A stretch of DNA of 64,000 nt from Filimonas lacunae (GTDB lineage Bacteria > Bacteroidota > Bacteroidia > Chitinophagales > Chitinophagaceae). The translations under genes were made by a program, and so were the position numbers. Shown one piece after another: positions 18,517 to 64,000 of the stretch. The notes under the pieces were generated by a model that saw nothing but the letters and a program-made list of their open reading frames with translations, did not search any database and was not told the DNA's origin. The DNA lies in assembly GCF_002355595.1 (NCBI RefSeq), contig NZ_AP017422.1:2170001-2234000 (forward strand). Reading direction: 5' to 3'. The first letter of the stretch is position 1; each line of letters opens with the position of its first letter.

Positions 18517-18721
18517 CGAGCAATACGGGACTTTTTAGCAGTCGAAAAAAAACTAAATAATTGTAGTTAAAATCACGTGTTCTTTTATTTTTCTACAAGT
18601 AATATGCTGTTATTCAGCATTTTGTCTTGCAAAAAACGGCATCTGTTGTGTTTTTTGTAAAACCTGACCTTATTCTATCATTCCTATAGGCTTACAGGGC
18701 TGTGCATAATCATTGGGGTGG

Positions 18722-18765
18722 CTGACAGCTGTCAGTGTTTGCATTTTTGGGGTGTTCTAGTTTTG
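18722..18765 (+). promoter_or_regulatory. TGAC-N4-GTCA operator plus -33/-7 promoter of the universal stress gene
   Basis: A perfect 14-bp palindrome CTGACAGCTGTCAG occupies 18722-18735. TTTG at 18738-18741, a 16-nt spacer and TAGTTTTG at 18758-18765 form a good Bacteroidota promoter. The palindrome centre (18728.5) is 36.5 bp upstream of the last G of the -7 box, i.e. near -41, where class II Crp/Fnr activators bind. The same arrangement recurs at 19676-19718, and partly at 59151-59193. Confidence 0.75.
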
Positions 18766-18804: not shown

Positions 18805-19626
18805 ATGATGAATACCATACTGGTAGCCACTGATTTTTCCGCTGCCTCTGTCAATGCCGCTGAATATGCTGCCGAAATGGCCTTAGTAGTAAAGAAAGAC
18901 CTGCTGCTGTTGCATATATACAGCCTGAATGTATCGTGGAACCAGATTCCGCTTACCACCGACAATACCAATATGAGCGAAGATGCCGATACGGCCCTTA
19001 ACCGGTTAAGAAACAGCCTGCACGAAAGAACCGGCCATAAGCTTACCATTGGCACCGAAGTGCGCACCGGGGTGTTTTTTACCGAGCTGGAAGCTTCCTG
19101 CGACCGTGTAAAACCCTATACCGTGGTAATGGGCAGCCAGGGCACCACCGCTGCCGAACGCTTTTTATTTGGCGGGCATACGGTGCATGCCATGCAAAAC
19201 CTGCAATGGCCGCTGGTAACCGTGCCGCCCGATGCCCGCTTTTTATATGTAAGAAGAATAGGGCTGGCCTGCGATTTTAACAATGTGGCAGATATTACCC
19301 CGGCACCTGCTATAACGGCGCTGGTAAAAGATTTTAACGCCGCCCTGCATATACTTAATGTGGGTAAAGAAACGGAGCTGGCTTCTGATATAGTTCGGGA
19401 ATCGGAGGTGCTGGAATCGTTGTTAGGAGAAGTAAAGCCACAGTATCATTTTATTGCGCATAACGATACCAACCAGGCGTTGATGGACTTTGTAGAAAAC
19501 TACCATATTCATTTGCTGCTGGTGCTGCCCCGCGAGCGAGATTTTGCCGATAAGCTGTTACACAAAAGCCATACACGCGAACTGGTGTTAAAAAGTAATG
19601 TGCCTGTTATGGCTCTGCATAAGTGA
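18805..19626 (+). CDS. Universal stress protein with two tandem Usp domains
   Basis: 273 residues. Two Usp folds are visible: residues 1-145 open with MMNTILVATDFSAASVNAAEYAAEMA and carry the nucleotide-loop-like VMGSQGTTAAERFLFGGHTVHAM. Residues about 150-273 are a more divergent copy ending in KSNVPVMALHK. Tandem Usp proteins are common in Bacteroidota and are often induced by oxygen limitation or stationary phase. A Crp/Fnr-type operator and strong promoter lie directly upstream, and the locus continues with a baeRF-type gene and a Crp/Fnr-type response regulator. Start 18808 (the second Met) is equally possible. Confidence 0.88.
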   Translation: MMNTILVATDFSAASVNAAEYAAEMALVVKKDLLLLHIYSLNVSWNQIPLTTDNTNMSEDADTALNRLRNSLHERTGHKLTIGTEVRTGVFFTELEASCDRVKPYTVVMGSQGTTAAERFLFGGHTVHAMQNLQWPLVTVPPDARFLYVRRIGLACDFNNVADITPAPAITALVKDFNAALHILNVGKETELASDIVRESEVLESLLGEVKPQYHFIAHNDTNQALMDFVENYHIHLLLVLPRERDFADKLLHKSHTRELVLKSNVPVMALHK

Positions 19627-19675
19627 TTGTGCAACATAACGAAGCTCATCTTATGAGCAGAATCAAAAACGGGGA

Positions 19676-19718
19676 TGACGATGGTCAGTGTTCAGGTGAT
19701 GGCAGCAGAATACTTTTG
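19676..19718 (+). promoter_or_regulatory. TGAC-N4-GTCA operator plus -7 box of the baeRF gene
   Basis: TGAC-GATG-GTCA at 19676-19687 is followed by TACTTTTG at 19711-19718. The operator centre (19681.5) is 36.5 bp upstream of the last G of the -7 box, identical to the usp promoter. No -33 TTG is present, as expected for an activator-dependent promoter. The start codon lies 17 bp downstream. Confidence 0.75.
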
Positions 19719-19735: not shown

Positions 19736-20836
19736 ATGATGCCTGATATGATCTATGAAGAAAAAGACGGGTTGGAAGGAGTAAGTGAGGTACCGGGAGT
19801 AAGTATAATAATGCCCTTTGAGCCTAAAATGGCCATCAGGGAAGAATTGGAGCAAAAAATTCAGGCAGTATTCACTAAAGTTGAACACGAATTGCTTGCC
19901 GAGTATCCCGAAAAGTATAGCACTGCCTTAACCAACCGGTTACGGGAAGTGTTAAAGCAACTGGATTACTCCACTTTTAAGCAAAGCATTGCCGTTTTTG
20001 TATCGCCGGTTTTTGACAAAGTATATTACCTCGATATTCCTGTACAGGAAAAGGTGGTAATTGACGAGAACTTTGAAATCCGCGACCTGGTAGCCAGTAA
20101 AAAGGAAACCACCAAATTCCTGGTGTTGTTGTTGAACAGCGAGAGCAGCCGCATTTTCTTAGGCAGCGCTTCGCAGTTTGTGCGCATTGCGCACCATACG
20201 CCTGCACACATGATGGCGCATGAAAACAACCGCCCCGAACTAGTAACGCACCTGGAAGACAACGAAAGCGGCAGGGAAAAAATGCTGGAGAAGTTTTTAC
20301 AGTATGTGGATAAGCGATTGGGTGTGATATTAAAGGTATATAATCTGCCTTTGTTTGTGGTGGGCACAGACCGCACCATCGGGCATTTTACCAAAAAAAC
20401 GCATTACAAAGAGCGTATTATCAGCTATGTGCATCATAACTATGAAAACGCAACCGATGTGGCTATACAGGAAGCAATTGCACCTAATGTAGCCAATTGG
20501 AAAAAAGTAAAAGAACGTGATTTGTTAAACCGGATAGATGCTGCCATGGGCGCTAAAAAGCTGGCTGTGGGCATTGAAGAGGTTTGGAAAGAAGCTACCC
20601 ACAAAAGAGGACAATTGCTGGTAGTAGAAAAGAAATACAGACATACAGAGGCGGCATCAGAAACAGGCACTACCTTTTTTCGCAGACCGGAAAACACCAC
20701 AGCCGCGCCATTTTATATTAAAGATGCGGTAGATGATGTGATAGAACAGGTGCTGGAAAGCGGCGGTGATGTTGAATTTGTGGAGGATGGCGTATTAACA
20801 GGCTACAAACAGATAGCGTTAATACAATACTATTAA
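19736..20836 (+). CDS. baeRF-family (bacterial archaeo-eukaryotic release factor-like) protein
   Basis: 366 residues. The N-terminal region (VSIIMPFEPKMAIREELEQK), the middle FLVLLLNSESSRIFLG strand set and the C-terminal KLAVGIEEVWKEATHKRGQLLVVEKKY resemble the eRF1-like domain 2/3 arrangement of the baeRF families. These families are thought to act at ribosomes, in termination or stalled-ribosome handling, but are little studied. I recognise the family from overall layout, not from a single diagnostic motif. It has its own Crp/Fnr-like operator and precedes a coiled-coil gene by 11 bp. Confidence 0.6.
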   Translation: MMPDMIYEEKDGLEGVSEVPGVSIIMPFEPKMAIREELEQKIQAVFTKVEHELLAEYPEKYSTALTNRLREVLKQLDYSTFKQSIAVFVSPVFDKVYYLDIPVQEKVVIDENFEIRDLVASKKETTKFLVLLLNSESSRIFLGSASQFVRIAHHTPAHMMAHENNRPELVTHLEDNESGREKMLEKFLQYVDKRLGVILKVYNLPLFVVGTDRTIGHFTKKTHYKERIISYVHHNYENATDVAIQEAIAPNVANWKKVKERDLLNRIDAAMGAKKLAVGIEEVWKEATHKRGQLLVVEKKYRHTEAASETGTTFFRRPENTTAAPFYIKDAVDDVIEQVLESGGDVEFVEDGVLTGYKQIALIQYY

Positions 20837-20847
20837 ACCAAACAGGT

Positions 20848-21225
20848 ATGGGGTCTTTGTTATCTATTGATGTTGACCAGCTGCAACAGGAGAGTGACAG
20901 GTGGAAGAAAAAGCTGGAGCTTTTATTACTGGAAAATGCTGTATTGAAAAACAGGCTTGCCGAGGTGGTTAATGCCAGTCATGCTACTGTGCCCTTTTTA
21001 GAAACAGCGGAGGAATACCAGAACCGTTTTATGCAAAAGGATGATATTATTAACCTGATGCGTCAGGATATTACTGAATTTGATAAACTGCTTGCACAAA
21101 GCCTGCATCACAATAAAGATATGATGCGGGCTATTGTTCAGCGGCAAAGAAGATTGCGTAAAGAACTATCGTTACTGGAAAGCACCTTCAAAAACCTGAA
21201 AGGGCAGTTTAACCAGCTGCTTTAA
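20848..21225 (+). CDS. Small coiled-coil protein
   Basis: 125 residues, predominantly charged helix with heptad-like Leu/Ile spacing, for example QLQQESDRWKKKLELLLLEN near the start and QRRLRKELSLLESTFKNLKG near the end. No signal peptide or membrane segment. It begins 11 bp after the baeRF gene and is probably co-transcribed and induced with it. Its stop codon overlaps the stop of the convergent response-regulator gene by 4 bp, with no terminator between them. Function unknown; an adaptor role for the baeRF protein is inference. Confidence 0.75.
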   Translation: MGSLLSIDVDQLQQESDRWKKKLELLLLENAVLKNRLAEVVNASHATVPFLETAEEYQNRFMQKDDIINLMRQDITEFDKLLAQSLHHNKDMMRAIVQRQRRLRKELSLLESTFKNLKGQFNQLL

Positions 21226-22262
21226 TTCAGCAGGCTTTCCAGTTTCTTTTCATTCAGTATAATAATATTACCGTCTTTAATATCTATCAGCTTTTCATTT
21301 TTAAAATCGCCCAGGGTTCTTATCATCGACTCCGTGGCGGTTCCGGCAATACTGGCCAGGTTTTCACGGCCTATATCTATAGTGGTATTGTATTTTTTAT
21401 GCAGGGTAATTAAAGCGTCTGCCACTTTTTTGCGTAACGAATTATAGGCCAGCTTTAACAAGCGTTCTTCCTGCTCGGTAATGTTTTTAGCCAGCATGGT
21501 AATAAACTTACGGGCTATGTTCTGGTTATTATTCATCAGGTCTTCAAAATCTTCCTTCGGTATAATAGCCAGTTCGGTATCTTCAATCGCTTTGGCCATC
21601 TCTTTATACACAGTGCCTTCCAGCAGGGCTATATGGCCCAGAAACTCACCCTCGTTGTATAAGCCCACCACCAGTTCTTTACCATCTTCATTACACTTAT
21701 AGGTAATAACCTTACCCTTTTTAATATAAAACAGGCGGGCAGGGCGGTTGCCTTCTGAATAAATAATTTGTTTTTTCTTATAGGTGTTTACGTTTCTATC
21801 GGCGGTAAAGGATTCCAGCGAATCGTTGCCGGTAGAAATGCGCATTAGCTTATCCAGCCCCGGAAGGTCGGGCGTAAACTCCTGCTTCATAGCTTCTACT
21901 TTCTTCAGCCTGCTTTCAATGGCAGTAAGCAGCTCTGTTTCCATAAAAGGCTTGGTTAAATAATCATCGGCGCCCAGCTCCATACCCCGGCGTATATCGG
22001 CCCGCTCTGCCTTGGCAGATAGAAAGATAAACGGGGTGTTTTGAATGGCGGGGTTTTTATGTAAAAGATGCAACACGCCATAGCCATCCAGCACCGGCAT
22101 CATAATATCGCAGATAATTAAATCAGGCTTTTCTTCTAAAGCAACTTCCACACCTATTTTACCATTCTCGGCAGTAAACACCTTGTAGTTGGCCAGTTCC
22201 AGAATTTCAGCTGTATTCTCGCGTATGTTCTGGTTGTCTTCTATCAATAAAATCTTCTTCAT
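21222..22262 (-). CDS. Response regulator: REC domain fused to a Crp/Fnr-type cNMP-binding and HTH effector
   Basis: 346 residues from MKKILLIEDN; the Met 3 codons further upstream is less likely. REC domain: acidic pocket E8/D9, phospho-acceptor Asp52 (DLIICDIMMP), Ser82 in FLSAK, Lys104 (YLTKP). Residues about 145-260 are a cyclic-nucleotide-binding-like jelly roll (IIYSEGNRPARLFYIKKGK, YNEGEFLGHIALLEG). Residues about 270-346 are a Crp-type winged helix (ENLASIAGTATESMIRTLGDF). The kinase gene lies directly upstream, 17 bp away. This protein is the best local candidate to bind the TGAC-N4-GTCA sites at the usp, baeRF and respiratory promoters. Confidence 0.93.
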   Translation of the reverse strand: MKKILLIEDNQNIRENTAEILELANYKVFTAENGKIGVEVALEEKPDLIICDIMMPVLDGYGVLHLLHKNPAIQNTPFIFLSAKAERADIRRGMELGADDYLTKPFMETELLTAIESRLKKVEAMKQEFTPDLPGLDKLMRISTGNDSLESFTADRNVNTYKKKQIIYSEGNRPARLFYIKKGKVITYKCNEDGKELVVGLYNEGEFLGHIALLEGTVYKEMAKAIEDTELAIIPKEDFEDLMNNNQNIARKFITMLAKNITEQEERLLKLAYNSLRKKVADALITLHKKYNTTIDIGRENLASIAGTATESMIRTLGDFKNEKLIDIKDGNIIILNEKKLESLLN

Positions 22263-22279
22263 ATGAAACACTGTAAACT

Positions 22280-23497
22280 TTAGAATGTAAAAACAAGGGT
22301 AAAGGTAGTACCGTGGTCAACAATACTGTTGCAACTGATAACACCATTCATCAATTCGGCATACTTGGCCACAATATGTAGCCCCAGGCCGGTACCATCT
22401 ATATTGCTGGCGTTGGATGCGCGAAAAAAGCGTTCGAACAAATGGGCCTGGTCTTCTTTGGAAATACCAATGCCCTGATCCTGCACCGATAATATAAACT
22501 GCTTGTCGGTTAACGTGCTGTTGATGGCAATAGTAGCATTTTCCGGCGAAAACTTAATAGCGTTACTCAGCAGGTTTACCACTATATGTTTCAAAAGTGT
22601 AGGGTCCATTACCAGCGTTTCAGCACCTTCGTGTGCATAGGTAATTTGCTGCCCGGGCTTTTGTATGGTTTTTAACTCTTCTATAATGCCATTGATCAGG
22701 CGGGTGATGGTAAAGGTGGTAGGCTTTACCGCTATTTTACCTTCTTCAATTTTGCCTACCGATAAAAAGTCGTTCAATATCTCTGTAAGGCCATTCACCG
22801 AGCTTACAATACGCTCGGTATGTTTCTGGCGTTTCGACTGCTCTTCGGTGGTAGTATACTTTTGCAGCAGGATAGTAGAAGAAAGGATGGTGCTGAGTGG
22901 GGTACGAAACTCGTGCGAAGCCAGCGATACAAAACGCGACTTTAATTCGTTCAGTTCTTTTTCTTTGTTCAGCGACTTGGCCAGTTCTTCTGTTGATTCT
23001 TCCAGCTTGGTCATGGTCTCTTTCAACTCAAACGTGCGCTGTTCCACTTTATCTTCCAGCTCATCATTCAGCCTGCGTATCTCTTCCTCTGCTTTTTTAC
23101 GAATGGTAATGTTGTTGATAAAGGCTATGACCAGGTTATTGTCGTCGTTCCGGTAATGGCAAAGACTCACTTCTACCGGAAACTCCGAGCCATCTTTACG
23201 CACACCGTACAGGTCCATACCCAGCCCCATAGGGCGGTTTTGCATATGGTTGCTGAAAGCTTCACGGTGGTGTACGTGTTTATGATGATAGCGGGAGGGA
23301 ATCAGTATTTCAATCTTCCGGCCATTCAGCTCACCATCATCATAGCCAAACAGGGCTTGCGTAAACGGGTTGGCCAGCACAATTTCTCCACGGTCGTTGG
23401 TAATAAGTATACCCACCGAAGCGTGTAAGAAAATGGCATCCACCAATTGCTTTTCGTTGCTGAACATCCCTAAGTTTAGTGGCTGTGTTGGCTGCAT
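22280..23497 (-). CDS. PAS-domain sensor histidine kinase with FixL-like PAS
   Basis: 405 residues, no membrane segments, so cytoplasmic. The PAS domain covers residues about 15-135. Its segment LIPSRYHHKHVHH followed by GVRKDGSEFPVEVSL parallels the heme PAS of FixL, with His74 aligning by eye to the FixL heme-ligand His. Many non-heme PAS domains share this motif. A coiled coil spans about 135-185. HisKA has phospho-acceptor His195 (SLASHEFRTP), and HATPase_c has N and G boxes (HIVVNLLSNAIKFS, DQGIGI, GTGLGLHIVAKY). It lies upstream of, and is co-transcribed with, the REC-Crp regulator. The signal may be oxygen or redox; that is inference. Confidence 0.92.
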   Translation of the reverse strand: MQPTQPLNLGMFSNEKQLVDAIFLHASVGILITNDRGEIVLANPFTQALFGYDDGELNGRKIEILIPSRYHHKHVHHREAFSNHMQNRPMGLGMDLYGVRKDGSEFPVEVSLCHYRNDDNNLVIAFINNITIRKKAEEEIRRLNDELEDKVEQRTFELKETMTKLEESTEELAKSLNKEKELNELKSRFVSLASHEFRTPLSTILSSTILLQKYTTTEEQSKRQKHTERIVSSVNGLTEILNDFLSVGKIEEGKIAVKPTTFTITRLINGIIEELKTIQKPGQQITYAHEGAETLVMDPTLLKHIVVNLLSNAIKFSPENATIAINSTLTDKQFILSVQDQGIGISKEDQAHLFERFFRASNASNIDGTGLGLHIVAKYAELMNGVISCNSIVDHGTTFTLVFTF

Positions 23498-58722: not shown

Positions 58723-59085
58723 ATGCAATCCGATACAATGAAACTGCCTGCTCATTTTGATGCCACTATTATGTCTGGCCTGATGGTGAACAATAAAGAA
58801 CAATTGAACGAGATGTTTGCCATGATAATAAAAGAACTGAACAAGTCGGTGGCCATATTGGAGACGAATGTGTGCAATAACGAGTTGCAAAATTTGAAAG
58901 CGGAAGGACATAAACTATATGGCACTACATTGATTGCCGGTTTGCCTTGCCTGGGAAGCCTGGCGCAGCAGTTTGAACATTTGCAATATATTTCGGAAAA
59001 AGAAGCTGGCCTTTTAGTGCTGCAAACAAAAGAAGAAGTACAGCTGGTAAATCAATTAATTGGAAACTATATTCAACAAGCCTGA
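58723..59085 (+). CDS. Stand-alone Hpt (histidine phosphotransfer) domain protein
   Basis: 120 residues, all helical. The Hpt phosphorylation motif is LKAEGHKLYGTTLIAGLPCL with His63, followed by LGSLAQQFEHL as in four-helix Hpt bundles. Such proteins relay phosphate between a hybrid kinase and a response regulator. No hybrid kinase or REC-only protein is adjacent; the nearest phospho-signalling genes lie 35 kb away. A second Met (58738) could be the start. Confidence 0.8.
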   Translation: MQSDTMKLPAHFDATIMSGLMVNNKEQLNEMFAMIIKELNKSVAILETNVCNNELQNLKAEGHKLYGTTLIAGLPCLGSLAQQFEHLQYISEKEAGLLVLQTKEEVQLVNQLIGNYIQQA

Positions 59086-59102: not shown

Positions 59103-59193
59103 AATATGACTTTTGTCATATTGCTATCTGTCCAAAGTCATATTTGCTAATGCTTTATGTCATAGAAATGTCATGGTGCGGCTTTTAGTTTTG
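59103..59193 (+). promoter_or_regulatory. Operator array and -7 box of the respiratory operon
   Basis: A perfect 20-bp palindrome TATGAC-N4-GTCATA (core, 59103-59122) has centre 59112.5. GTCAT recurs at 59115, 59137, 59159 and 59170, spaced 22, 22 and 11 bp. The third copy is part of TGCT-N4-GTCA (59151-59162), centred exactly 36.5 bp before the last G of TAGTTTTG (59186-59193), as at usp and baeRF. No -33 TTG is present, so activation by a Crp/Fnr-type protein is likely. Confidence 0.7.
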
Positions 59194-59232
59194 GTGTAGA
59201 AACCAATTCGAAAAAAACTAAAAGTTTACATT

Positions 59233-59979
59233 ATGAAAACCAGGCACAAACCTATCCGGGTTCTTATAGCTGCTTCTTTATTGTGTAGTGGAATTATCTT
59301 TTATACATCTTCCTGTACCCACGACGATGCCGTGTTGCCAGCCAGCAGCACCGGCTCTGAAAGCACAGATCCTACCTATTATGTAACACGCGGTTCTGAT
59401 GTGGTAAAGTTTGCTGCTACTGCTGCTAATGGGGTGTATACATTTGATAAAGTACACTCCAATGTAGGGTGGGAAACACGTTATGCCGCTATAGGAGCCA
59501 AGCTAACCGGTAAATTTAACTGGTTTGGATTCAGTGAATTTAACTTTGATGAAGCTACCCCTTCCAATACTAAGTTCAGGGCATGGGTGCAGTTAAACCA
59601 GGTAAACACCGGCGAAAGTGGCAGGGATGGTGGATGTTTATTAACTGCCTTTAATACCGATGCTGCATCAGACGCAGCCAAAAGTGGTGAACCTGCCAAC
59701 GATTATAACAAAGCGGTGATTCAATCTAAAACTGTTACCTATAATTCAGCAGAGAATGTATACAACGTAGTGTGCGACTTCACTTTCATGGGAATAACCA
59801 AGGAAGTGACTGCCAAACTGGGCTATGCAGGCAAAGGCACTTATACCAATGGTACCAACCTGCTCAGAAGCTTTGATCTGCGCTTTTCTATTTCTCTTAC
59901 CGACCATCCTTTAAAGGCCGATCAGGATCAGGTGAATGACAAAGTGGACATTACCTGTAACGCCAACTTCAAACAATAA
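59233..59979 (+). CDS. YceI-like lipoprotein
   Basis: 248 residues. Signal sequence with lipobox FYTSSC gives a lipidated Cys near residue 28. The YceI/lipocalin-like beta-barrel follows: FDKVHSNVGWETRYAAIGAKLTGKF opens it, and VCDFTFMGITKEVTAKLGY and VDITCNANF are late strands. YceI proteins bind long isoprenoids such as quinones or polyprenols. As first gene of an operon encoding cytochromes c and an NrfD-type quinol subunit, quinone or isoprenoid binding is a plausible but unproven role. Confidence 0.85.
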   Translation: MKTRHKPIRVLIAASLLCSGIIFYTSSCTHDDAVLPASSTGSESTDPTYYVTRGSDVVKFAATAANGVYTFDKVHSNVGWETRYAAIGAKLTGKFNWFGFSEFNFDEATPSNTKFRAWVQLNQVNTGESGRDGGCLLTAFNTDAASDAAKSGEPANDYNKAVIQSKTVTYNSAENVYNVVCDFTFMGITKEVTAKLGYAGKGTYTNGTNLLRSFDLRFSISLTDHPLKADQDQVNDKVDITCNANFKQ

Positions 59980-59990
59980 TTTCTACAGTT

Positions 59991-60401
59991 ATGAAACGTA
60001 CGATACTCACAGTCATGATAATGGCTATGGCTGGCTGCGCCTTGCTAACAGGTTGTTACAAGGATGTAAGAATGGCCGACAGTTCAAGTAGCGACGGCAG
60101 TTCGGGTGGTAGTGATGGAGGTGCAGTGCCTGCCGATTCGGTAACATTTGCGAAATATGTAGTGCCGCTTTTTACCAGCAATTGTGTTACCTGCCACGGC
60201 GGCAATGAAGCGCCCGACCTGCGTGCAGACAATGCTTATAAATCGTTGATCAATGGCAAGTATGTGGTAGCGGGTGATGCCGCCAGCAGCATTCTTTACC
60301 AGAAAGTAAGTTCCGGTTCTATGCCACCCGATGGTCCTATGAAGACCACTGATATTGACAAAATTAAAAACTGGATCAACAACGGGGCATTGAATAATTA
60401 A
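59991..60401 (+). CDS. Monoheme cytochrome c-like lipoprotein
   Basis: 136 residues. Lipobox ALLTGC gives lipidated Cys22; a Ser/Gly-rich linker (SSSSDGSSGGSDGG) follows. Heme c motif CVTCH at 65-69 (SNCVTCHGGNEAPDL); the likely axial Met is in SGSMPPDGP near residue 109. The architecture matches periplasmic membrane-anchored electron carriers. It is 11 bp after the YceI gene and 21 bp before the DUF5777 gene, so clearly within the operon. Confidence 0.9.
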   Translation: MKRTILTVMIMAMAGCALLTGCYKDVRMADSSSSDGSSGGSDGGAVPADSVTFAKYVVPLFTSNCVTCHGGNEAPDLRADNAYKSLINGKYVVAGDAASSILYQKVSSGSMPPDGPMKTTDIDKIKNWINNGALNN

Positions 60402-60422: not shown

Positions 60423-61349
60423 ATGAAACAATTGAATATATCCGGTGTGCGTATGGTATGTTGCGCATTACTGCTGGTAGGCTACAGTGCTGCTTTGCAG
60501 GCGCAGGACAGCACTGCTGTGGAAGCCGAAGCAGTAAGCCAGCCTGTACTGCCTAAAAAAGGGAAGCCGGTTAAAAATACATTTGAAAGCATCTGGCTTA
60601 TTGATGAGCAAACAGTGGAGGTGCCAGTGGTACGAACATTTGAAATGGATTTTCGTCACCGCTTTGGAACGGTGAACAATGGTTATAAAGATTTTTATGG
60701 GCTGTTTGCTTCTGCCAACATTTCGCTGGGCGCTAACTATGTTCCTATCAAAAATTTACTGGTAGGGGTGGCGTTAACCAAAAGCAATATGACCTGGGAA
60801 GGCTACGCCAAATATGCTTTGCTAAAACAGGTGCGTAATGGCAAAGGGTCACCGGTAAGTGCTACCTGGTATGCTCATATGGCCATAGAAAGCAAGGAGA
60901 GTGCTACCTATGCGCGCTTTTCCGATCGCATGTCGTACTTCAATCAGTTAATCATTGCTCGTAAAATAAGCGAGAAGCTATCTGTACAAGTGGCGCCGGG
61001 CTGGGTACATCATAATGTGGTAGATGGTTATTCCCCTTATGCAGGCAAGTACCTGAAAGAAAAGCCTAATGATCACTTTATGGTAGCGGTGGGTGGCAGG
61101 TTTAAACTGACTGAATCTATGTCGGTGATTGCCAACTACGACCAGCCGCTTACTACAGACAATGTAGGCAATGCACATCCCAATATTTCAGCAGGTCTGG
61201 AGTTGTCTACCAGCGGACACGTATTCCAGTTTTTTGCAGGTAACTACTATTATATCACCCCACAGCGCAACATCGTGTTTAACCAGAACGATTACACCGA
61301 AAGGCAGTTTCTGATTGGTTTCAACATCACCCGTTTGTGGAATTACTAG
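60423..61349 (+). CDS. DUF5777-family outer-membrane beta-barrel protein
   Basis: 308 residues with signal peptide ending AALQAQ. Family features: PVKNTFESIWLIDEQTVEVP, then FEMDFRHRFGTVNNG, YGLFASANISLGANYVPIKNL and a series of ~10 amphipathic strands ending FNITRLWNY, an outer-membrane barrel C-terminus. Function unknown; the family tends to occur with periplasmic electron-transfer genes in Bacteroidota (recalled, not checked). Here it lies between two cytochromes c. Confidence 0.85.
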   Translation: MKQLNISGVRMVCCALLLVGYSAALQAQDSTAVEAEAVSQPVLPKKGKPVKNTFESIWLIDEQTVEVPVVRTFEMDFRHRFGTVNNGYKDFYGLFASANISLGANYVPIKNLLVGVALTKSNMTWEGYAKYALLKQVRNGKGSPVSATWYAHMAIESKESATYARFSDRMSYFNQLIIARKISEKLSVQVAPGWVHHNVVDGYSPYAGKYLKEKPNDHFMVAVGGRFKLTESMSVIANYDQPLTTDNVGNAHPNISAGLELSTSGHVFQFFAGNYYYITPQRNIVFNQNDYTERQFLIGFNITRLWNY

Positions 61350-61382: not shown

Positions 61383-61784
61383 ATGAAACTCAGCATTTTA
61401 AAAAGCAGCGTCTTATTACTGGCTGTTAGTTGTATAGCTTTTGCTTTTACCGTTGCCGATAACTGGCCGGTACCCGATAAAGCAGCTAAAACACCTAACC
61501 CTGTAAAAGCTACCCCCGAATCTATTGCAGAAGGTAAAGTGTTATGGAGCAAGCATTGCCAGTCATGCCACGGTAAAGCGGGCGAGGGCGATGGTTCTAA
61601 AGCCGCTCAGCTGAAAACATTGCCCCCTTCTTTTGCCAAAGCCGCTTTTCAGCAGCAAAGCGATGGGGCCATCTTCTACAAAACATCTGAAGGGCGAGAT
61701 GATATGCCCTCTTTTAAAAAGAAACTTCCTGAGCAGGAAGATGTTTGGAATCTGGTCAACTACATGCGCACATTTAAAAAATAG
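61383..61784 (+). CDS. Soluble-type cytochrome c
   Basis: 133 residues. A signal or anchor helix (LLLAVSCIAFAFTV) is followed by a class I cytochrome c domain with heme motif CQSCH at 59-63 (HCQSCHGKAGEGDGS) and axial Met in GRDDMPSFKKKLPEQEDVWNLVNYMRT. It is a periplasmic electron shuttle, probably between the NrfD/Fe-S complex and a terminal enzyme. It lies 33 bp after the DUF5777 gene. Confidence 0.92.
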   Translation: MKLSILKSSVLLLAVSCIAFAFTVADNWPVPDKAAKTPNPVKATPESIAEGKVLWSKHCQSCHGKAGEGDGSKAAQLKTLPPSFAKAAFQQQSDGAIFYKTSEGRDDMPSFKKKLPEQEDVWNLVNYMRTFKK

Positions 61785-61868: not shown

Positions 61869-62111
61869 ATGGACGTAGAAAAAGATATACAGGAGCGCCG
61901 GTTTTTTGCTGGCTGGATTATTCTGGCTATTGCAGGATTGTCAGGCATTACCTGGTTTAGAAAAAAACAGGAGCCACCCCTGTCTGAAAAGGTGACCATG
62001 CTTACAGAGGATGGCCGTTTGGTGCAGATTGATTCTACCTTATTGCAAAAAGGTGCAACCAAAAAGGTTACAAACGCCGAACTGCAAACATGGGTAAAGC
62101 ATAAACCCTGA
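61869..62111 (+). CDS. Small membrane-anchored protein of the respiratory operon
   Basis: 80 residues. One membrane helix (FFAGWIILAIAGLSGITWF) is followed by a periplasmic stretch SEKVTMLTEDGRLVQIDSTLL. That stretch resembles GEKVKLLSVNGDVIEVDKAFL in the Fe-S protein encoded next, with the same spacing of Lys-Val, Gly, Asp and Leu. It may be an assembly or docking subunit for the Fe-S/NrfD complex. No known family recognised. Confidence 0.7.
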   Translation: MDVEKDIQERRFFAGWIILAIAGLSGITWFRKKQEPPLSEKVTMLTEDGRLVQIDSTLLQKGATKKVTNAELQTWVKHKP

Positions 62112-62136
62112 TTACTGATGCTACAATTTTTTGATC

Positions 62137-63075
62137 ATGAGCAACTCAACTAATGAACTTACCAGCAGGCGCGCGTTTTTATCCGGCGCTGCTATGGCTG
62201 CCGTGGGCAGCGTGGCGGCTATAGCTTGCAACAGTAATAAACATCCTTTTACGCCGGAAGATGAAAGCGTTGTGCCATCCGGCGAAAAAGTAAAGCTGTT
62301 ATCGGTAAATGGTGATGTGATAGAAGTGGATAAGGCTTTTTTAAAACCAGTGCCTGATATGCCGCCCATCAGCAACGACGAAGCACGGGTGGGCATTGCG
62401 GGCAAAAAGTTTGTAATGGTAATTGATTTAAGCCGTTGTAAAAACCTGAAAAAATGCCAGTCTGCCTGTAATCACATGCACCATATCCAGGACGGACAAA
62501 ACTGGATTAAAGTATATGCTATGGGAGAAGAAGCGGAGCATACAGCGCCCTACTGGCAACCCACCACCTGTATGCATTGTGATGTGCCACCTTGTGTAAA
62601 AGTATGCCCTGTAGATGCCACGTTTAAGCGTCAGGACGGGGTGGTGCTGATAGACAGTGACCGCTGTATAGGTTGCCGCTTTTGCATGGCTGCCTGCCCT
62701 TACAGCACCCGTGTGTTTAACTGGAGCGAACCTGTGTTAACGGAGGATGTAGCCAGCACGCATTATAACTGCGAAACCAGTGTGCCACAGAAAAAAGGCA
62801 CAGTAGGTAAATGTGATTTTTGTGCAGACATGACGCGCAAAGGAGAATTACCACACTGTGTAAGCGCTTGTCCCAACGGCGTGTTCTTCTTTGGTGACAT
62901 TAATGAAGACAGTGTTTCCAATGGTGCCGAAACTTTCCGCTTTAGCGAGCTGATCAGGGATAAAGCCGGTTATCGCCTGCTGGAAGACCTGGGCACGCAT
63001 CCTAACGTGTATTACCTGCCACCGGTAAACAGAAACTTTCCATTTGAGGTGGGTAAGGAAAACGATAAAGGATAA
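62137..63075 (+). CDS. Tat-exported ferredoxin-like subunit with four [4Fe-4S] clusters (DmsB/NrfC/PsrB type)
   Basis: 312 residues from MSNSTNEL; the TTG two codons upstream is rejected. Twin-arginine signal SRRAFLSGAAMAAVGSVAAIAC, possibly also a lipobox. Four Cys groups: CKNLKKCQSACNH, CMHCDVPPCVKVCPVD, CIGCRFCMAACPYS and CDFCADMTRKGELPHCVSACPNG. These place it among DMSO, polysulfide and nitrite reductase Fe-S subunits that carry electrons between an NrfD-type membrane partner and a catalytic subunit. The catalytic subunit gene is not in the window. Confidence 0.94.
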   Translation: MSNSTNELTSRRAFLSGAAMAAVGSVAAIACNSNKHPFTPEDESVVPSGEKVKLLSVNGDVIEVDKAFLKPVPDMPPISNDEARVGIAGKKFVMVIDLSRCKNLKKCQSACNHMHHIQDGQNWIKVYAMGEEAEHTAPYWQPTTCMHCDVPPCVKVCPVDATFKRQDGVVLIDSDRCIGCRFCMAACPYSTRVFNWSEPVLTEDVASTHYNCETSVPQKKGTVGKCDFCADMTRKGELPHCVSACPNGVFFFGDINEDSVSNGAETFRFSELIRDKAGYRLLEDLGTHPNVYYLPPVNRNFPFEVGKENDKG

Positions 63076-63111: not shown

Positions 63112-64000
63112 GTGGAAAATGAATTAACAGTAACGGAAGAGCAAAAAATTATAGCCGATCTATTGCCCAGGCCATTTGGCAGGGCCGGCAAAATATGGGT
63201 GGCTGCATTAAGTGTAGTTTGCCTGCTGGGGGTGTTTGCCTATTACCGGCAGCTGCGTTATGGGCTGCAGGTAACCGCTATGCGCGATTATGTATCGTGG
63301 GGCTTATACATTTCCAACTTTGTGTTTTTTGTGGCTATAAGCCTGGTGGGATCGTTGATTACAGCCATATTGCGCATAGCCAATGTAACCTGGAGCACCC
63401 CCTTAACCCGTATTGCTGAAATGATAGCTATTGCGGCTATTATGTTCGCGGCCATGATTATTGTAATTGATATGGGCCGGCCCGAAAGGCTGCTGAACGT
63501 ATTTGCCCACGGGCGCATTCAATCGCCCATTATATGGGATGTGGTGGTGATCACTACTTATTTCTTTGTGAGTCTTTTATTGCTATACCTGCCTTTGCTG
63601 CCAGATATACAGATATTGCGCGCGCACCAGGTAGCTGCCGTAAAACCTTTTCAGAAGCTGTATAAGTTCATGGGGGCTTTCTGGAAAAAAACACCCGAAC
63701 AACACCGCATCAGCAGCAAAGCCATCAGCATACTTTGTATCACTATTATACCGGTGGCCTTTTGTATTCACACGGTAACCTCGTGGTTGTTTGCTACTAC
63801 TTTCCGGCCCGGATGGGACAGCACCAACTTTGGCGCTTACTTTATTTCCGGTGCTTTTCTGGCGGGCAGCGGCGCCGTGGTAGTTGCCATGTTTGTGGTA
63901 CGTAAAGCATATCAGCTGGACAAGTATATTACAGATGTACACTTTGACAAAATGGGCCGTATTCTGGTGCTGCTGGCTTTGTTGTATCTATATTTCAATG
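63112..64000 (+). CDS. NrfD/PsrC-type quinol-oxidoreductase membrane subunit (runs off the window)
   Basis: Open for 296 codons to the last base, so the C-terminus is missing. The only nearby in-frame start is GTG at 63112 (VENELTVTEEQ), 36 bp after the Fe-S gene. At least six hydrophobic helices are visible (WVAALSVVCLLGVFAYYRQL, SWGLYISNFVFFVAISLVGS, AAIMFAAMIIVIDMGRPERL). MRDYVSWGLYISNF and DMGRPERLLNVF with a following IQSPIIWD are typical NrfD/PsrC signatures near the quinol site. It should exchange electrons between menaquinone and the Fe-S subunit. Confidence 0.9.
   Translation, partial: MENELTVTEEQKIIADLLPRPFGRAGKIWVAALSVVCLLGVFAYYRQLRYGLQVTAMRDYVSWGLYISNFVFFVAISLVGSLITAILRIANVTWSTPLTRIAEMIAIAAIMFAAMIIVIDMGRPERLLNVFAHGRIQSPIIWDVVVITTYFFVSLLLLYLPLLPDIQILRAHQVAAVKPFQKLYKFMGAFWKKTPEQHRISSKAISILCITIIPVAFCIHTVTSWLFATTFRPGWDSTNFGAYFISGAFLAGSGAVVVAMFVVRKAYQLDKYITDVHFDKMGRILVLLALLYLYFN

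Follow-up and report, generated by a model that had tools for sequence, protein, structure and literature searches.

A predicted 22-bp tandem Crp/Fnr-type operator at a cytochrome operon and a stress locus of Filimonas lacunae

The cytochrome operon, its promoter and the stress locus

The window, by which is meant the whole analysed stretch of 64,000 nucleotides (Filimonas lacunae, contig NZ_AP017422.1, positions 2,170,001 to 2,234,000), carries at its right end an operon that had been described in the original prediction as encoding cytochromes c, an Fe-S protein and an NrfD subunit. All of these are present; the first gene, however, codes for a YceI lipoprotein, and the description is corrected in this respect. 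The genes are arranged in the order YceI, cytochrome c, DUF5777 barrel, cytochrome c, small ORF, Fe-S protein and NrfD:

59233 to 59979, forward strand: YceI-domain lipoprotein, the operon's first gene (PF04264; lipoprotein character read from the sequence)
59991 to 60401, forward strand: cytochrome c (PSCyt1/CBB3 by family search) with a lipoprotein-like signal read from the sequence
60423 to 61349, forward strand: DUF5777 membrane beta barrel (PF19089)
61383 to 61784, forward strand: cytochrome c (PF13442/PF00034)
61869 to 62111, forward strand: small ORF of about 80 amino acids, recognised by eye from the sequence
62131 to 63075, forward strand: DsrO/NrfC-like Fe-S protein (DsrO 180.6 bits, cut-off 200)
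63112 to 64000, forward strand: NrfD subunit, running off the window (end at 64422 according to L100; PF03916 on L100:5113-6423)

The Fe-S gene is listed with a TTG start at 62131, and the in-frame ATG at 62137 is the more likely start. Followed beyond the window, the operon (L100:1234-7318) also encodes a 297-aa protein without Pfam or NCBIfam family. The genes from YceI to NrfD probably form a quinol-to-cytochrome electron pathway, and the module of YceI, cytochrome c, barrel, cytochrome c, Fe-S protein and NrfD may reach the outer membrane; no catalytic reductase subunit was noticed among the operon genes read. In its Fe-S (DsrO/NrfC-like) and NrfD pair with a cytochrome c the operon resembles the DsrMKJOP and NrfABCD quinol modules, from which it differs in that its proteins score below the NCBIfam cut-offs and in that a barrel, a lipoprotein-like cytochrome and YceI are part of the operon.

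Between an Hpt-domain gene (58723-59085) and the YceI lipoprotein gene (59233) there is, within 59103-59193, an array of three Crp/Fnr-type 12-bp sites separated by steps of exactly 22 bp and followed by a promoter element:

59107 to 59118, forward strand: distal site TGACTTTTGTCA, matching TGACN4GTCA at 8/8 bases, centre 59112.5, predicted position -85.5, at a distance of 44 bp from the proximal site
59129 to 59140, forward strand: middle site TGTCCAAAGTCA, 7/8 bases, centre 59134.5, predicted position -63.5
59151 to 59162, forward strand: proximal site TGCTTTATGTCA, 6/8 bases, centre 59156.5, predicted position -41.5 (the class II position)
59158 to 59173, forward strand: 11-bp direct repeat TGTCATAGAAATGTCA, with an extra half-site GTCA at 59170-59173 that pairs with the proximal site
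59186 to 59193, forward strand: -7 promoter element TAGTTTTG (TAnnTTTG), with transcription predicted to start near 59198

The original prediction had noted a half-conserved TGCT-N4-GTCA site at an offset of exactly 36.5 bp and a perfect TGAC-N4-GTCA palindrome 44 bp further upstream. Both are there as described: the first is TGCTTTATGTCA, whose centre lies 36.5 bp from the last base of TAGTTTTG, and the second is TGACTTTTGTCA, centred at 59112.5 as against 59156.5. The middle site TGTCCAAAGTCA, halfway between these two, had been overlooked, so that the inventory of sites was right in its outer members and their offsets and incomplete between them. The proximal site has lost two of the eight consensus bases, and its TGCT left half recurs at the ompW promoter of the same genome and at the locus L252 of a relative. 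In the mapped transcriptome of a flavobacterium (PMC9723704), TAnnTTTG occupies positions -12 to -5, which would place the centres of the three sites at -41.5, -63.5 and -85.5. The proximal site thus lies where the activator of a class II Crp/Fnr promoter is expected, near -41.5, reckoned from a predicted start and a box position taken from a relative.

Some 40 kb away, two promoters of a stress locus show the same site-to-box offset as the cytochrome operon. They precede a universal stress protein gene and a baeRF gene, and genes for a regulator and a kinase follow on the opposite strand:

18701 to 18765, forward strand: tandem operator with its -7 box in front of the universal stress protein gene (1 mismatch), with sites at 18701-18712 and 18723-18734 (TGACAGCTGTCA) and TAGTTTTG at 18758-18765
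18805 to 19626, forward strand: universal stress protein (PF00582)
19654 to 19718, forward strand: tandem operator with its -7 box in front of the baeRF gene (0 mismatches), with sites at 19654-19665 and 19676-19687 (TGACGATGGTCA) and TACTTTTG at 19711-19718
19736 to 20836, forward strand: baeRF_family3 protein, a Balon-like ribosome hibernation factor (PF18845, 90.8 bits; 205.8 bits against the NCBIfam AOC03_06830 family, below the cut-off of 330)
21222 to 22262, reverse strand: regulator with receiver, cNMP-binding and HTH_Crp_2 domains (Pfam) and the recognition helix GTATESMIRTLGDFK
22280 to 23497, reverse strand: PAS histidine kinase (domain search)

A small ORF of about 125 amino acids at 20848-21225 has no Pfam family; its 67% homologue (L178:3068-3448) lies directly behind an operator, as does another ORF of about 125 amino acids without Pfam family (L369:1109-1480).

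Frequency, spacing and conservation of the array

Sites, spacing, conservation, gene content and gene neighbourhood are all read directly from the sequence. Within the window, TGACN4GTCA with at most one mismatch occurs 10 times against 15.0 expected, and the one-site pattern with at most two mismatches has 61 matches in the F. lacunae genome against 114 for the reversed control; neither is in excess, and both are what would be seen if promoter-like words had arisen by chance in an AT-rich gap. Single sites, the proximal one included, therefore prove nothing alone; the full array does, and it stands far above chance. It matches at 21/24 positions, a value reached by none of 20,000 dinucleotide shuffles (best 13) and by none of 20,000 shuffles in which the -7 box was kept (best 15). 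With two mismatches or fewer, the tandem pattern including the -7 box is matched 22 times in the genome and its reversed control not once; when three mismatches are allowed, the counts are 36 and 7. The 22 include the stress-locus promoters (18701 and 19654) and the cytochrome operon (59129). A few of them may be false, as six are not closely followed by an ORF, one of these lying inside a 254-aa ORF, and one match precedes a divIC gene. With the shuffles, the tandem counts and the retention of the element at orthologous operons set against it, an origin of the array by chance is extremely improbable.

The spacing was examined with the pattern TGACN4GTCA-N8..38-TAnnTTTG, the gap being the number of nucleotides between palindrome and -7 box. 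A gap of 23 is found in 5/6 matches in the F. lacunae genome and in 48/111 matches from 59 genomes belonging to the order (own genome included), where 8 matches have gap 22, 9 have gap 24 and every other gap is represented by 0-4. When gaps of 19-27 were searched in a phylum sample of 198 genomes, gap 23 accounted for 13/18 matches in the family and order, 45/62 in the class and 16/38 in the rest of the phylum. The surroundings of the sites differ with the gap: of the gap-23 sites, 35/49 are not within a long ORF and have an ORF start no more than 80 nt away, and 1/49 is inside a long ORF, as against 4/15 and 8/15, respectively, for sites with unrelated gaps, the first ORF after a site being picked by length and possibly wrong where its start is distant.

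The 22-bp step is enriched as well. A partner site (at least 6/8 bases) is located 22 bp upstream at 10/49 gap-23 sites and at no more than three for any other distance between 12 and 69 bp, the next best being 44 bp (3 cases). Palindromes that are not followed by a -7 box at gaps 20-26 also have a partner at 22 bp, in 14/136 cases, and at any other distance in at most two. As this step was first found in 49 gap-23 palindromes that exclude the operon's own promoter, the operon in the window is an independent case. The exact tandem pattern with the -7 box occurs in 46/99 genomes (own included), the control in none of them. Judged by sequence, then, a site followed after 23 nt by TAnnTTTG is a rule in the Bacteroidota.

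Conservation was examined before orthologous operons. DUF5777 was dropped as an operon marker, being too widespread (130/147 genomes, own included); the Fe-S protein, with matches at E up to 1e-40 in 31/147 genomes (own included), served instead. It has no match in two genomes of the same genus, and conservation was therefore examined beyond the genus only. A total of 113 operon loci was assembled, 33 from whole genomes and 80, the best of 586 loci, from named public contigs, with Niastella vici and Flavihumibacter profundi among the relatives that have the operon; the two collections overlap, and upstream regions are unique by their last 200 nt only, so that some relatives may count repeatedly. 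The series YceI, cytochrome c, DUF5777, cytochrome c, Fe-S and NrfD recurs, partly or wholly, in the loci read.

Upstream of YceI there are 35 distinct regions, own included, a set that may hold YceI genes outside the operon. Allowing one mismatch per element, gap 23 accounts for 11 hits and gap 24 for 5, with 4 more spread over the remaining 30 gaps, and site pairs occur at 22 bp only (10). These strict limits are passed by 16/35 regions, the operon's own promoter not among them. The original prediction was to fall if the palindrome was not conserved in relatives; with at most two mismatches in all and gaps of 22-24, the element is found in 23/35 YceI regions, which extends its conservation beyond the genus, and is lacking in 12/35. 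Sets of three gaps that do not overlap 22-24 yield 0-7 of 35. On this count the prediction stands. Upstream of cytB, 102 regions yield 9 hits with a gap of 23, 3 with a gap of 24 and 5 elsewhere; under looser limits, with two overlong regions dropped, it is present in 11/100 and absent from 89/100. Upstream of the internal Fe-S gene, 105 regions contain no element with a gap of 23 and a single one with a gap of 24.

The 11-bp direct repeat of the proximal site is the sole match of TGTCAN6TGTCAN{2,32}TANNTTTG in the F. lacunae genome, and in 59 genomes 8/17 matches of this pattern lie at gap 12 or 13. Besides the window, the loci with a repeat at this spacing are L239, L241, L242, L244, L245, L252 and L253. 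All eight repeats precede cytochrome or respiratory-type genes, as assigned by Pfam for L240 (the YceI gene of the window) and L253 (its gene examined as L183), by tblastn for L241 (cytB), and by likeness to tested relatives for L239, L242, L244, L245 and L252.

The repeat and its distance are similar to a Pho box, and the proximal element could accordingly be a direct repeat of the PhoB/OmpR type (TGTCA-N6-TGTCA, separated from the -7 box by 12 nt) read by another regulator, for example in phosphate starvation. The TGTCA repeat of 11 bp upstream of a promoter (59158-59173) agrees with a PhoB box, as does its recurrence at gap 12 or 13. None of the eight repeats precedes a phosphate-like gene, however; in L239, L242 and L253 the first half of the repeat is at the same time the right half of a perfect TGACN4GTCA, and the upstream partners at 22-bp steps in the window are of the Crp type. 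This makes a Pho-type element very unlikely, and a Crp/Fnr-type proximal site is preferred.

Candidate regulators of the operator

The protein encoded at 21222-22262 possesses PF00027 and PF13545 domains and the helix TATESMIRTL with the E-x-x-x-R motif, which place it in the Crp/Fnr superfamily. It is not an FNR proper, as it (L066) has no cysteine in its first 45 residues and carries a receiver domain instead. Among the best 60 of 324 and the best 60 of 79 matches in solved structures, no chain spans both the receiver and the Crp parts; these matches cover either the receiver part or the Crp part alone.

The F. lacunae genome has nine HTH_Crp_2 matches, among them a second receiver-Crp (gene at genome position 3510044), whose recognition helix is nearly that of 21222-22262, and an FNR-like protein, L062 (gene at 6480842). 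The latter has cysteines at positions 21, 24 and 33 of the ORF as read, the N-terminal cluster of FNR proper, and scores 96.8 bits against NCBIfam Fnr (cut-off 228). Its gene is located about 4.5 kb from ccoNO. The recognition helices GTATESTIRLLSEFK of L062 and GTATESMIRTLGDFK of 21222-22262 are nearly the same, with a common core GTATExxIRxL.

Receiver-Crp genes are found repeatedly beside the operator. Genes of the 21222-22262 type lie inside 8/113 operon loci, and other Crp types in 3/113. A receiver-Crp gene occurs within 10 kb of 8/48 gap-23 sites and of 0/63 sites with other gaps; it also occurs within 10 kb of 14/66 tandem sites where 0.35 would be expected. Non-receiver Crp genes are situated within 10 kb of 8/66 tandem sites (expected 0.22), and the six of these eight proteins that were read all have N-terminal cysteines. 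These proximity counts cover only the Crp genes among the matches listed, with weaker ones missing, and the expectations assume an even spread over rounded genome sizes. Tandem sites are present in 22/39 genomes with a receiver-Crp and in 4/20 without a listed one, groups that differ in genome size; an N-terminal-Cys Crp-type protein is found in three of these four (G032, G046 and G053), the fourth being G014. The corresponding comparison of gap-23 sites (21/39 genomes against 3/20, Fisher p 0.005) carries little weight because of confounding with genome size (mean 4.7 against 3.0 Mb).

On gene neighbourhood, the 21222-22262 receiver-Crp is linked to the operator and is a candidate among at least three Crp-type proteins. 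The main reader could instead be L062 as a direct oxygen sensor, and we consider the chance of this to fall only a little short of even. Such a role would be in keeping with its nearly identical helix, with the cysteine-bearing non-receiver Crp genes beside tandem sites, with the genomes that keep tandem sites without a listed receiver-Crp, and with the 0-mismatch tandem match at the nearby ccoNO; on the other hand, receiver-Crp genes predominate at the operon orthologues and genomes with a receiver-Crp have tandem sites more often, subject to the difference in genome size, and the two proteins may also act together. The operator is apparently common to the receiver-Crp and the FNR-like protein.

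Predicted regulon content and the proposed mechanism

Among the genes that follow gap-23 or tandem sites are ccoNO, with a 0-mismatch tandem match, coproporphyrinogen oxidase, a HemN-like radical SAM protein, several cytochromes c, OmpW, YiaAB, acetyl-CoA transferase, universal stress proteins, a CcoI/FixI-like metal ATPase and an Rrf2 regulator. Pyridoxamine oxidase, formate-tetrahydrofolate ligase (recognised by eye) and divIC, which have no evident tie to oxygen, are found there as well. The genome has a second locus with a kinase and a receiver-Crp (L165, G000:C1:3508000-3524000), in which operators precede a baeRF gene, two universal stress genes and pfkB, and which also holds an alcohol dehydrogenase and a cation ATPase.

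This gene set is probably that of a low-oxygen regulon, the signal being judged from gene names and content only. According to PMC10901736, the mycobacterial Balon homologues Rv2629 and Msmeg1130 respond to or are induced by hypoxia. In Flavobacterium psychrophilum, low oxygen raises the cbb3 oxidase and heme synthesis (PMC9723704), a response that fits the low-oxygen reading. The original prediction had joined the stress locus and the respiratory operon in one regulon; the tandem matches, the conservation before orthologous operons and the neighbourhood of receiver-Crp genes lend this strong support.

We therefore interpret 59103-59193 as an activator-dependent class II promoter with Crp/Fnr sites in 22-bp tandem, belonging to a shared low-oxygen and dormancy regulon, and assign to this reading a probability of about 0.84. 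Binding, activation, cooperation, the oxygen signal and the Crp-type protein that acts here are what we infer. Dimers of the Crp/Fnr superfamily would occupy the three sites in 22-bp steps on one face of the DNA (-85.5, -63.5 and -41.5), and the dimer at -41.5 would, like a class II activator, contact RNA polymerase where it sits on the -7 box TAGTTTTG. The upstream dimers might stabilise the one at -41.5 and compensate for the weak proximal site; help of this kind would explain how that site can be weak. The same operator would drive the universal stress protein and Balon-like genes, the cbb3 oxidase, ompW, pfkB and further genes.

Activation of the class II Crp/Fnr kind is already known, as are FNR regulons. 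The class II CRP and FNR promoters of E. coli have half-sites with a GA-N6-TC core, and their activators a Crp-type E-x-x-x-R helix. The present promoter shares the -41.5 site, this core and this helix with them, and differs in its TAnnTTTG -7 box, its TGAC half-site and its two additional upstream sites, spaced by exactly 22 bp. Typical FNR targets are ccoNO, heme synthesis, cytochromes c, ompW and acetyl-CoA transferase; all of these recur here, with the gene of a Cys-containing FNR near ccoNO, whereas the operator is apparently common to a receiver-Crp and the targets also comprise universal stress and ribosome hibernation genes.

DosR of mycobacteria has a NarL-type output domain and a regulon with stress, hibernation, pfkB and ATPase genes. 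Universal stress proteins and a baeRF/Balon-like gene are found in both receiver-Crp loci of F. lacunae, pfkB and a cation ATPase in L165, and the gene set agrees with the DosR list. The output domain is HTH_Crp_2 and not of the NarL/LuxR type, the operator is different and the phylum is another, so that the system resembles DosR in its working and is not a member of the DosR group. A low-oxygen and dormancy regulon of the Bacteroidota parallel to DosR can nevertheless be imagined, with one operator read both by an Fe-S FNR-like sensor and by a phosphorylation-controlled receiver-Crp; dimers would be stacked at 22 bp, receiver domains would perhaps bridge neighbours, and kinase and oxygen signals would be summed. 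This wider scheme is tentative, and we hold it to be more probably wrong than right.

Among the open-licence literature matches listed (titles and beginnings of abstracts), no description was found of an operator with 22-bp tandem sites at a fixed distance from the Bacteroidota -7 box, apparently common to a receiver-Crp and an FNR-like protein and linking respiration with universal stress and hibernation genes, or of targets of the receiver-Crp class. Promoters of the Bacteroidota differ from the textbook kind, and the action of activators on them is less well known. If the proposed reading is true, a 22-bp tandem 23 nt before TAnnTTTG would be a genome-wide predictor of low-oxygen regulons in the phylum, and stress, ribosome hibernation and respiration would be under one control. 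In three loci (L058, L188 and L404), genes of Rrf2-like regulators, Pfam-tested in L404 only, are divergent from cytochrome c or similar genes, and one pair of tandem sites is common to both divergent genes and used on both strands.
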